Part shown: one piece after another, positions 18,359 to 25,135 of the stretch
Position numbering within the stretch: the first letter of the stretch is position 1
Layout of the letters: every line of letters starts with the position of its first letter
Source of the DNA: Gammaproteobacteria bacterium HGW-Gammaproteobacteria-15
GTDB lineage: Bacteria > Pseudomonadota > Gammaproteobacteria > Enterobacterales > Alteromonadaceae
Reading direction: 5' to 3'
Assembly (NCBI GenBank): GCA_002840125.1
Contig: PGZF01000007.1
Location: 62,001 to 126,000 of the forward strand
DNA: 64,000 nucleotides
The notes under the pieces: model-generated
What the model was told of the DNA's origin: nothing
The model's database searches: none
The model's input: only the letters and a program-made list of their open reading frames with translations
Program-made: the position numbers and the translations under genes

Positions 18359-19132
18359 GTGACATCAAACACTGCACAAAACGGTAAAACGGCGAAGAGC
18401 GATGCAAAGCCCCGCAGCAAAATGTCGGCACTGCTCGGTGTTGGCGGCAGCATATTGTTTGTCGCCATCGTGCTGGTATTACTGGTGCATTTTGGTGTGC
18501 ATGAAGAGGTGTTGCATCTGCTGCAGTGGTTTAAGCAGCAGGGCGCCTGGGCGCCGGTGCTGTTTATGCTAATTATGGCCGCTGTAGTGGTATTACTGCT
18601 GCCGGGAGCGCTGTTTACTGTGGGAGCCGGTTTTGTTTTTGGCGTGGCGGCAGGCTCAGTTTATGTATTGCTGGGCACCACTGTTGGTGCTGTGTTAGCG
18701 TTTTTGATTGCGCGCTACTGTTTTGGCCAGCGTGCCAGAGAATTTGTTATGGCGCGGGCGAAGTTACGGCTGGTAAACAACGAACTAACGCCAAATGGCT
18801 GGAAGATCGTGCTTTTAACCCGCCTGATCCCGTTTTTCCCCGGCAAAATCTCTAATTATTTTTTTGGTTTAACCCAGTTCTCGTTGCGGGGGTATATCGG
18901 TGGCTCGTTGCTGGGCTTTATTCCGTTTACTGTGCACAACGTGTATCTGGGTTCATTGATTGCCGATATCTCCAGTTTTGATTTTACCTCACGTGAGCGC
19001 TCAGTATGGGAGTGGGGCCTGTATGCCGGTGGTTTGCTGGCTGCTGTGGCTGTGATTATTTATCTTAACCGTCTGGCCAGCCGGGCGCTGGCGCAGTATA
19101 CCGAACAAGATCCGCAGAAGGAGCCTGACTGA
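18359..19132 (+). CDS. TVP38/TMEM64 (VTT-domain) membrane protein
   Basis: 257-aa inner-membrane protein with about six hydrophobic segments and the VTT/SNARE-associated signature, including LTRLIPFFPGKISNYFFGLT in the second half. DedA/VTT proteins are implicated in lipid movement across bilayers (undecaprenyl-phosphate and phospholipid flipping). GTG start at 18359 with AGGGGA upstream. The stop overlaps the next start by one base (TGATG), so it is the first gene of a coupled operon with a glycosidase-like protein, a glycosyltransferase and a phosphatase fusion. Substrate unknown. Confidence 0.88.
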   Translation: MTSNTAQNGKTAKSDAKPRSKMSALLGVGGSILFVAIVLVLLVHFGVHEEVLHLLQWFKQQGAWAPVLFMLIMAAVVVLLLPGALFTVGAGFVFGVAAGSVYVLLGTTVGAVLAFLIARYCFGQRAREFVMARAKLRLVNNELTPNGWKIVLLTRLIPFFPGKISNYFFGLTQFSLRGYIGGSLLGFIPFTVHNVYLGSLIADISSFDFTSRERSVWEWGLYAGGLLAAVAVIIYLNRLASRALAQYTEQDPQKEPD

Positions 19133-22717: not shown

Positions 22718-25135
22718 ATGATCATTCGGGTTTCAGTATGGCTGCGCTGGTTAAGACGGGCAGTAAGCCGCAGCCGCTGGCTGGCGAGGCTATTACAATT
22801 ACCGGTTTCAAAAGGGTCGGCCGTGCGGCCGGGGCTGATTATGCTGCAAATAGACGGCCTGTCCAAAATTGAATTAGAGCGGGCGCTGGACCGCGGCGAG
22901 ATGCCGTTTTTACGCCGTTTACTACAGCGGGAACACTACAGCCTGCATGCTCAGTACTCTGGCTTACCAGCAACGACGCCGGCGGTACAGGCTGAGTTAT
23001 TTTATGGTATCCCCGGGGCAGTGCCAGCCTTCTCTTTTTGTGACCACCGTACCGGTAAGATAGTGCGTATGCTACAACCTGATACTGCGGCACAGGTAGA
23101 ACAGCGCTTGGCCGGGCAGACCAAAGCGGCGCTATTAAAAGATGGCAGTGTCTATGCTGACATGTTTACCGGCGGTGCTGCTGAATCACACTTTTGTGCC
23201 TCTTCCCTGGGCTGGGGCTCTGCCCTGCGTAGTGCCAATCCGCTGGTATTACTGGTGTTGTTTATTAGTAACTTTTACAGTGTACTGCGCATTATTGGCT
23301 TATTTTGTCTGGAAGTTGGCCTGGCACTGCGCGACTTTTTCCGTGGGCAGGTAAAAGGACATGATTTTCTGACCGAACTGAAGTTTGTACCGACACGGGT
23401 TGCGATCTCTATAGTGTTGCGTGAACTGTGTGTTATCGGCGGCAAGATTGATCTCAGTCGCGGCATGCCCATAGTGCATATTAACTTTCTCGGTTACGAC
23501 GAGCAGTCACACCGGCGCGGGCCTTCTTCCCGCTTTGCGCATTGGACGTTAAAAGGCATTGACGACAGTATCGCCAGGTTATGGCGGGCAGCGCACCGTT
23601 CTGAGTGGCGTAACTATGAAGTCTGGATCCACTCTGATCATGGGCAGGCAAAAGTCGTCCAGTATAGCCAATTGCACGGCTATCCGTTGCAACATGCGGT
23701 TGAGCAGTGTTTTGACAGGCTCTCATCGGAGTCACCATTAGCGCGGTCTGCAGCAAAAGGCGGCATTCAGACCCAGCGTGTCAGATTACTGGGTGGTAAA
23801 CGGGTGCAGCGTGTGTTTGCGGTCGAGCGCAGTGAAGACAGTGAAGCCGACGATGGCATCAAAGTCGCGGCTTTAGGACCTGTTGGCCATATCTATGCAC
23901 CGCAGCCGTTATCAGAACCTGAGCTGCATTTTATTGCTACTGAACTGGCGACACGTTATCAGGTACCGATAGTGCTGACGGTTGAAAGCGAGCAGTGTTT
24001 GCGGGCCACGACCAGCGATGGGGATTATTATTTACCTGAGGACGCTGCTAAGTTGTTCGGCAGCGAACATCCGTTTCTGGACAGCCTGAGCGATGATTTG
24101 CTGCGGTTGTGCCATCATGCCGATGCCGGTGATCTGGTGGTGATGGGCTGGCGTGAAGGGCTGACACCATTGACCTTTGCTGATGAGAATGGCGCGCACG
24201 CCGGTGCCACGCCGGAGGAGACCACAGGTTTTGCGCTGCTGCCTGCTGATGTTGCGCTGCCACCGGCAGGCAGCCGCTATATGCGGCCGCACGATTTATA
24301 TCAGGCAGCGCTGCACTATCTGGGCCGCACAAGCCGTCAGCCGGTGACACGTGACAAAACACGAGCTGACACTGCTGAAGGCTTACGCGTGATGACGTAC
24401 AACGTGCATAGCTGCATCGGGCTGGATGGCAAGGTTGATGTCGAGCGCATCGCCCGCGTCATAGCACTGGCTAACCCCGATATCGTCGCGCTGCAGGAGC
24501 TGGATGTCGGGCGGGGCCGCAGTTTGGGGTTGGATCAGGCCCAGCTGATAGCGCGCAAACTGGAGATGGAGTTTCATTTTCACCCGGCGATGCATCTGGA
24601 AGAAGAGCAATACGGCGATGCCATTTTAACTCATTTACCGCTGAGGTTAATCAAAGCCGGGCCATTACCGGGACTTGCTGACAAGCCGAAATTGGAGCCG
24701 CGAGGCGCGATCTGGGCTGCCGTAGAGTTTAATGGCCAGGAAGTGCAGATTATTAATACCCATCTGGGGCTGCAACCCCGCGAGCGGCTGGCGCAGATTG
24801 ACTGTTTATTGGGCAAGGACTGGCTGGGCCACCCTGATTGTCGCGGGCCGGTGATATTATGCGGTGACTTAAATGCGCAACCAAACTCGGAGGTATGCCA
24901 GCGTATTAAAGTGCAGTTGCACGATGCTCAAACAGCGCTGAAGCCGCACCGGCCTGCTGGCACCTTTCCCAGCCGGTTCGCGGCGCTGCGGATAGATCAT
25001 ATTTTTGTCAGTAAGGCGCTGACAGTCACCGGCATTGAGATACCTGGCACACAGCTGGCAAAGGTCGCATCAGATCACTTACCCTTGCTGGCGCAGCTAC
25101 GGCTACCCCGCCACTGTGGTACAACGGCTGATTAA
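22718..25135 (+). CDS. Fusion of alkaline-phosphatase-superfamily domain and EEP phosphodiesterase
   Basis: 805 aa. Residues 36-530 carry AlkP-superfamily metal ligands: D46 (LQIDGL), nucleophile T87 (ATTPAVQ), D261/H265 (GYDEQSH), D307/H308 (SDHGQA) and H494. A hydrophobic stretch at 176-205 may insert in the membrane. Residues 555-797 are an endonuclease/exonuclease/phosphatase domain: N562 (TYNVHS), E594 (LQELD), H682 (NTHLGL), D717/N719 (GDLNA), D760/H761 and D786/H787 (SDHLPL). Both active sites look intact. The start at 22718 has GGAGGAG; the longer frame overlaps the GT4. Likely a two-step phosphodiester hydrolase on a lipid or glycan phosphate; substrate unknown. Its end overlaps hemB by 4 bp. 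Confidence 0.85.

Follow-up and report, generated by a model that had tools for sequence, protein, structure and literature searches.

What might a membrane protein, a glycosidase-like protein, a glycosyltransferase and a double phosphodiesterase do together in one bacterial operon? The question is raised by four genes at positions 18359-25135 of a 64,000-nucleotide stretch (the window) of contig PGZF01000007.1, which belongs to the 4.68 Mb genome (G000) of Gammaproteobacteria bacterium HGW-Gammaproteobacteria-15. They encode, in order, a VTT/TVP38 protein of the DedA superfamily (VTT), a six-hairpin glycosidase-like protein (TOR), a GT4 glycosyltransferase (GT4) and a fusion of an AlkP-type with an EEP-type phosphodiesterase (AlkP-EEP). 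An earlier note, made from the sequence alone, had described the genes as tightly packed, and the open reading frame (ORF) coordinates agree: the VTT stop and the TOR ATG overlap by 1 base, 3 bases separate TOR from GT4, and 49 bases separate GT4 from AlkP-EEP. The same note proposed that the four proteins build, move, trim and release a glycolipid or a lipid-linked glycan. Our results partly support that interpretation. The four genes are almost certainly a real conserved module and not a chance arrangement, and we tentatively suggest that it makes and remodels a glycosylated membrane lipid.

Conservation of the four-gene module

Searching sequenced genomes for the same neighbourhood, as the earlier note had suggested, recovered VTT-TOR-GT4-AlkP-EEP in identical order and on one strand at 37 of 60 loci, a fraction that is conditional because the 60 loci were found through AlkP-EEP or TOR. 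The set includes the window and excludes repeat fetches (L035, L037, L089-L100) and a non-module locus (L108). Full loci occur in Gamma- and Betaproteobacteria and in one deltaproteobacterial metagenome-assembled genome (MAG); they include L036, with VTT in two frames, and L059, with VTT cut by the contig end. The other loci hold GT4-AlkP-EEP (9), TOR-GT4 (5), TOR-GT4-AlkP-EEP (2), VTT-TOR-GT4 (2), VTT-AlkP-EEP (1), TOR-GT4 with a divergent AlkP-EEP (1), or AlkP-EEP alone (3, of which two start at a contig end and one, L088, is the EEP half only). GT4 lies ahead of AlkP-EEP in tandem at 48 of the 53 AlkP-EEP loci (37+9+2); the five without it are L084, L085 (divergent) and the three with AlkP-EEP alone. 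A scan of genome contigs found at least 42 loci with an AlkP-EEP protein, a lower bound since the scan used six exact peptide patterns.

The linkage was also seen in taxonomic samples. Of 369 genomes of the class, 16 have a full-length TOR, 11 have a full-length AlkP-EEP and 9 have both; GT4 lies directly behind TOR in 16/16 and directly ahead of AlkP-EEP in 11/11 (in G560, GT4 is cut by the contig end). In the phylum sample, 5 of 398 genomes have full-length TOR (G000, G090, G797, G811 and G844), and the first three carry all four genes, with AlkP-EEP only partly visible in the loci fetched for G090 and G797. We searched ten genomes with a TOR-less AlkP-EEP locus and found TOR elsewhere in three; it is absent from seven, five of which are MAGs by title and possibly incomplete; the completeness of G450 and G560 is 97%. 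In the L070 and L077 genomes, GT4-AlkP-EEP and VTT-TOR-GT4 stand at separate places, and in Thiohalobacter (L084) the module is split into VTT-AlkP-EEP and TOR-GT4.

Quick trees of the four proteins are congruent (Pearson 0.82-0.95; none of 2000 label permutations as high for each of the six pairs), a result that, taken alone, would equally follow from shared descent. The possibility raised in the earlier note, that the genes are scattered and independently inherited, mostly does not hold in view of gene order, co-occurrence and tree congruence; the partial forms are nonetheless real.

Several loci are irregular. The Thiohalobacter AlkP-EEP, directly behind VTT, falls in two reading frames (L084:9917-12071) and looks broken or misassembled. 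The VTT of G090 is in two overlapping frames at L036:7851-8399 and at L167:722-1511, possibly a frameshift. The second GT4 of the L070 genome occupies two adjoining frames near a contig end (L110:3446-4110). A separate gene for a 262-aa EEP half (54% identity) is present in a Verrucomicrobiia MAG (L088:7311-8096). At L184 and L185, VTT-TOR stands alone between a DnaJ-like gene and a carbon-metabolism run (names from translations only).

A double phosphodiesterase with a putative membrane-binding N-terminus

That the fourth protein joins two phosphodiesterases, as first read from motifs, is borne out by Pfam matches to Phosphodiest (PF01663, 3e-9) and Exo_endo_phos (PF03372, 6e-23); no metallophosphoesterase model appears among its matches at E up to 0.001. 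In the AlkP half, residues T87, D46, D261, H265, D307, H308 and H494, which we take to be the Thr nucleophile and metal ligands, are present without exception in the rows that span them (50-52 of 53). In the EEP half the same is true of N562, E594, H682, D717, N719, D786 and H787 (51-53 of 53), presumably the catalytic Asn, Glu, His, Asp-x-Asn and Asp-His. The structure model has a predicted local distance difference test score (pLDDT) of 78 and a predicted template modelling score of 0.78. The best folds of the two halves include ENPP6/ENPP7 and neutral sphingomyelinase. AlkP-EEP is like these proteins in the folds of its halves and in its active-site residues, and unlike them in joining both domains in one bacterial protein, which also has a hydrophobic hairpin and an amphipathic helix.

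The helix is a consistent property of the sequences. The N-terminal hydrophobic moment is 0.52-0.79, above the 95th percentile, in all 48 full-length AlkP-EEP proteins (background of 490 neighbour ORFs: median 0.32, 95th percentile 0.51). A moment of at least 0.54 combined with a charge of +3 or more is found in 46 of the 48 and in 1.2% of the background. Every one of the 48 also has a 19-residue segment, starting at residues 151-230, with a Kyte-Doolittle value of at least 1.77. From these features, the AlkP-EEP N-terminus looks membrane-bound.

TOR, a glycosidase-like protein outside the Pfam and NCBIfam families

TOR matches nothing in Pfam at E up to 0.001, with no family above cut-off; the GH15 model PF00723 is matched by 4 of 23 TOR members, with a best E of 0.12, below cut-off. 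The glycosidase-like assignment made earlier agrees with the predicted fold, a six-hairpin ((alpha/alpha)6) barrel with an N-terminal beta-sandwich, as in GH15. TOR shares this combination with the GH15 glucoamylases and glucodextranases and the GH65 alpha-glucosidases at 11-14% identity, and a GH65 structure tops the fold list. Residues 31-80 and 90-103 of the model have pLDDT below 50.

D477 and E627 are invariant (Table 1). Profile alignment with hhalign relates TOR modestly to GH15, with 87% probability, placing D477 opposite the Glu of the GH15 WE motif at low posterior and E627 opposite another GH15 Glu; we assume that these GH15 residues are the acid and the base, respectively. The same program saw no similarity to five GH65 proteins (0.1%), a set from which two doubtful rows had been dropped. 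A GDE comparison set consisted of six rows, of which L155, not the lead row, is possibly in the wrong frame. TOR differs from GH15 and GH65 in having Asp for Glu at the proposed acid and an extra conserved N-terminus of 100 residues.

Of the sequences that we compared, the closest to TOR is a large protein that combines an F5/8C with a six-hairpin domain; hhalign aligns the two over 630 columns at E 9e-22. This protein, the one of its kind compared in detail, shares FWDDFW and the later Glu with TOR. Proteins of this kind, some of them annotated 'discoidin domain-containing', differ from TOR in carrying the F5/8C domain, and our literature search found nothing on them. The large protein compared lies at L108:2306-5755 (minus strand). 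Two plasmid matches, in Methylosinus and Methylocystis, are annotated merely as 'discoidin domain-containing'. TOR looks like a sugar-cleaving enzyme from a family not described in the protein databases searched.

GT4 scores best, below cut-off, with lipid glycosyltransferase models

GT4 has the two expected Pfam domains (PF13439 and PF00534; 7e-36 and 1e-33), and the EX7E glutamates are invariant in 56/56 copies. Its two best NCBIfam models, both covering nearly the full length, describe lipid glycosyltransferases: alpha-monoglucosyldiacylglycerol synthase (NF049988; 145 bits against a cut-off of 400) and GlcNAc-phosphatidylglycerol synthase (NF053787; 125 bits against 480). The lipid-acceptor type proposed in the earlier note is thus upheld by the ranking of the models, though the scores are far below both cut-offs. 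The alpha-monoglucosyldiacylglycerol synthase model comes first for none of the eight further GT4/GT5 proteins encoded in the genome and sixth for one of them (E up to 1e-15). The nearest sequences of solved structure are 3c4q/3c48 ('predicted glycosyltransferases') and 5d00, and PimA also scores; we take the first pair to be MshA and 5d00 to be BshA.

Elsewhere in the genome, at G000:C2:399841-404537 (L126, L127, L132), are glycosyltransferases of the PEP-CTERM/XrtA system. Matches above cut-off to TIGR04063 (L126) and TIGR03088 (L127) suggest an exosortase-linked polysaccharide cluster.

VTT lacks the acidic residues of undecaprenyl-phosphate flippases

The membership of the first protein in the DedA/VTT group is clear from VTT_dom (PF09335, 1e-22; 81 bits against a cut-off of 34). 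With the re-entrant stretches and helix tips located from motifs rather than from a structure, and with two rows being fragments elsewhere, the first re-entrant stretch has no Asp or Glu in 19/19 rows, and the second has an Arg and a Lys in 19/19, including the invariant R155 and K163. According to PMC10127716, undecaprenyl-phosphate flippases have acids in the first stretch and two basic residues in the second, and COG0398 proteins lack those acids and resemble eukaryotic phospholipid scramblases. VTT is like COG0398 in missing the acids and keeps the two basic residues; an anionic lipid is therefore a possible substrate.

Distribution and probable horizontal spread

All four genes are found in Rheinheimera, Arsukibacterium, Thiobacillus and Microbulbifer, and Nitrospinota have mostly GT4-AlkP-EEP. 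The distribution is patchy: of 31 genomes from the genus, 15 carry TOR, and a single-protein search found it in 3 of 295 in the order sample. In the GT4, TOR and AlkP-EEP trees, Rheinheimera/Arsukibacterium join Thiobacillus, Saccharospirillum and Haliea with a Shimodaira-Hasegawa-like approximate likelihood ratio support of 98-100. G090 (L036), which shares the window's family, lies outside that clade in all three trees; its branch is flagged as long, with odd composition, for TOR and AlkP-EEP and has no long-branch flag for GT4. In the GT4 tree, an approximately unbiased test of a group chosen after the tree was seen rejected a single clade of L036 with the four Rheinheimera/Arsukibacterium rows (p 0.0004). 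The mixing of classes within one clade and the placement of L036 therefore suggest that the operon is a self-contained unit that has spread horizontally.

In 1.5-kb steps, the guanine-plus-cytosine (GC) content is 51-57% in the operon and 46-53% in the flanks, slightly higher throughout the operon. Despite this difference there is no sign of a very recent arrival, because the operon's place is common to Rheinheimera and Arsukibacterium. We rejected a plasmid-borne unit, for which only the two distant 'discoidin' matches (23-24% identity) could be cited, and a phage-borne one, since no TOR relative was confirmed in viral contigs scanned with two peptide patterns.

A possible membrane glycolipid cycle and its alternatives

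We propose, with a probability of about 0.45, that the operon serves to synthesise and remodel a glycosylated lipid at the cytoplasmic face of the membrane. With its amphipathic N-terminal helix and its hydrophobic hairpin as membrane anchors, AlkP-EEP would cut phosphodiester head groups off lipids in a phospholipase-C-like reaction, which would either release the acceptor lipid or recycle the product. GT4, which by family would be retaining, would put an alpha-linked sugar on that acceptor; TOR would remove or trim the sugar, forming a writer-eraser pair with GT4; and VTT would shift the lipid between leaflets. This cycle of building, moving, trimming and releasing is one that we infer, as are a lipid as the substrate, an alpha linkage, the sequence of reactions and the direction in which the lipid would be moved.

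PlcP-Agt of marine heterotrophs and Agrobacterium offers the closest working model; in it, according to PMC4796936, a phospholipase-type gene adjoins a glycosyltransferase gene and the pair is tied to glycolipids made from diacylglycerol. The likeness lies in a phosphodiesterase gene adjoining a glycosyltransferase gene. The module differs in that its phosphodiesterase fuses AlkP and EEP, other families than the PlcP metallophosphoesterase; in adding a glycosidase-like protein (a possible eraser) and VTT (a lipid mover); and in having no convincing Pho box. No paper with the same four members was found in open-licence PMC text, where absence is weak evidence; the one match, on Bacteroidetes, was unrelated.

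In favour of the glycolipid cycle we count the linkage and the congruent trees, the lack of a consistent neighbour (see below), the amphipathic helix of AlkP-EEP and the lipid-type folds of its halves, the two lipid-acceptor models of GT4, a VTT without acids, and the lipid-type genes beside two loci (L077, L105). Other results weigh against it. G811 and G844, of one genus, have VTT-TOR with no GT4 or AlkP-EEP within about 6.5-10.5 kb either side; TOR thus need not work beside this GT4, and a rule that GT4 always lies beside TOR fails. GH94 phosphorylases are among the first ten Foldseek matches of TOR, with GH116 beta-glucosidases lower; these act on beta-linked sugars, and the fold therefore does not fix an alpha linkage. 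The N-terminal moment of TOR is unexceptional, being reached by 7 of 45 window ORFs, possibly TOR included. For AlkP-EEP, nucleotide-type folds (Xac NPP, TDP2, Nocturnin) reach scores similar to those of the lipid-type folds, GT4 falls well short of its lipid-model cut-offs, and most of the adjacent genes scanned are unrelated to lipids, such as a P-type ATPase behind L103, a nitroreductase ahead of L104, DUF502 beside L038 and an OmpA-type protein ahead of L044. Ahead of the operon there is no Pho box beyond a match with 3 mismatches on the opposite strand (18229-18246), and the 64 kb hold 8 matches with up to 3 mismatches where 4.2 are expected; we therefore set aside a place in the phosphate regulon. 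Finally, the literature matches listed include no report of a Rheinheimera glycolipid.

Three other explanations have to be weighed. The main rival, which we consider unlikely, is that GT4 and TOR make and degrade a soluble cytoplasmic product, either a glycan or a compatible solute, with VTT and AlkP-EEP loosely connected through membrane homeostasis or phosphate recovery. TOR-GT4 (5 of 60 loci) and VTT-TOR-GT4 (2) do occur without AlkP-EEP, and among the best folds of TOR are enzymes of soluble glycans: glucoamylase, glucodextranase, dextran dextrinase and a methylmannose-polysaccharide hydrolase (7qsj). The linkage to both membrane-related genes at 37 loci speaks for a closer connection, as do the split into VTT-AlkP-EEP and TOR-GT4 in Thiohalobacter, the two genomes with separate GT4-AlkP-EEP and VTT-TOR-GT4, and the seemingly membrane-bound N-terminus of AlkP-EEP. 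Recycling or editing of a polyprenyl-phosphate-linked glycan, in which GT4 would build on the carrier, TOR trim, AlkP-EEP cleave the phosphodiester and VTT return the carrier, is distinctly improbable. Some VTT/DedA proteins flip undecaprenyl phosphate, as stated in PMC10127716, and the two basic residues of VTT are invariant; by the same source, however, the missing first-stretch acid is a reason against such flipping. Moreover, inspection by eye of the ORFs at 14000-30000 and of the largest neighbour clusters, in neither case with a family search, revealed no Wzx, Wzy, ligase or initiating transferase.

That AlkP-EEP has nucleotides, nucleotide sugars or nucleic acid as its substrates, within a stress or defence system, is very unlikely. 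The nucleotide-type folds near the top of its list would fit, as would a weak GT4-conflict match (PF20706, 2e-9), but none of the four proteins has a PADLOC match at E up to 0.01, which led us to reject a defence system. The viral contigs scanned with two patterns gave no TOR relative either, and a cationic amphipathic helix suits a membrane substrate better.

A wider form of the glycolipid cycle strikes us as possible, if somewhat doubtful: TOR would found a glycoside hydrolase family and act on a membrane glycolipid that a dedicated GT4 makes, with a new membrane-bound double phosphodiesterase as supplier and a TVP38-type scramblase as distributor, in a new bacterial cycle whose genes are passed between classes as a unit and between phyla in parts. 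If true, environmental bacteria such as Rheinheimera and Thiobacillus would be able to make and recycle a glycolipid of their membranes, a new family of sugar hydrolases could be named, and a TVP38-type protein would get a defined biochemical context that could help identify the bacterial cargo of its family.

Operon layout, flanking genes and regulation

The features of the operon are collected in Table 1. The AlkP-EEP ATG is preceded by GGAGGAG, and the protein is 95% identical to the R. hassiensis copy. Judging only from their translations, we take the ORF upstream of the operon to be alpha/beta-hydrolase-like and the one downstream, on the opposite strand, to be HemB.

Table 1 Features of the operon, in positions of the window
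Feature	Position	Strand	Basis
VTT/TVP38 (DedA superfamily) membrane protein, 257 aa	18359..19132	+	GTG start; PF09335 1e-22
TOR, six-hairpin glycosidase-like protein, 749 aa	19132..21381	+	ATG start; without Pfam or NCBIfam family
TOR residues 1-100, strongly conserved N-terminal region (LINSRVIQHNLDWVWPYW), Trp/Arg-rich start	19132..19431	+	Conservation; poorly modelled
TOR D477 of WDDFW, candidate general acid	20560..20562	+	D in 47/47 TOR proteins
TOR E627 of QWPE, candidate general base	21010..21012	+	E in 47/47; aligns with GH15 Glu
GT4 glycosyltransferase, 427 aa, EX7E (E288, E296)	21385..22668	+	PF13439 and PF00534
AlkP-EEP double phosphodiesterase, 805 aa	22718..25135	+	PF01663 + PF03372 in one protein
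AlkP-EEP N-terminal cationic amphipathic helices (residues 2-25)	22721..22792	+	Model helices H2-15, H18-25; hydrophobic moment
AlkP/NPP half of AlkP-EEP (residues about 37-545)	22826..24352	+	
Hydrophobic helical pair inside AlkP half (residues 175-210)	23240..23347	+	Kyte-Doolittle; model helices 175-184, 186-210
EEP half of AlkP-EEP (residues 553-798)	24374..25111	+	

Comparison of flank clusters revealed no neighbour consistently beside the module across clades. Neighbours that might name a pathway were rejected: the shared clusters, named from translations, are broad families in varied places and strands (response-regulator-like at 12 of 44 loci, GGDEF-like at 10, universal-stress-like at 6). 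An inverted repeat ahead of VTT, ACCTGT-N9-ACAGGT at 18284-18304, was discarded as an operator, as it is not intact in the 10 relatives aligned. A promoter scan gave 6 sites against 5.8 expected, none ahead of the operon.

Two diverged loci have a lipid-type gene within 40 bases of the module's profile ends. At L077, an AMP-binding/PP-binding/Acyltransferase protein lies behind AlkP-EEP, and at L105 a DUF374 protein, presumably acyltransferase-like, lies ahead of TOR. In one genome, a P-type cation ATPase follows closely behind TOR-GT4 on the same strand (L103:700-3423, minus).

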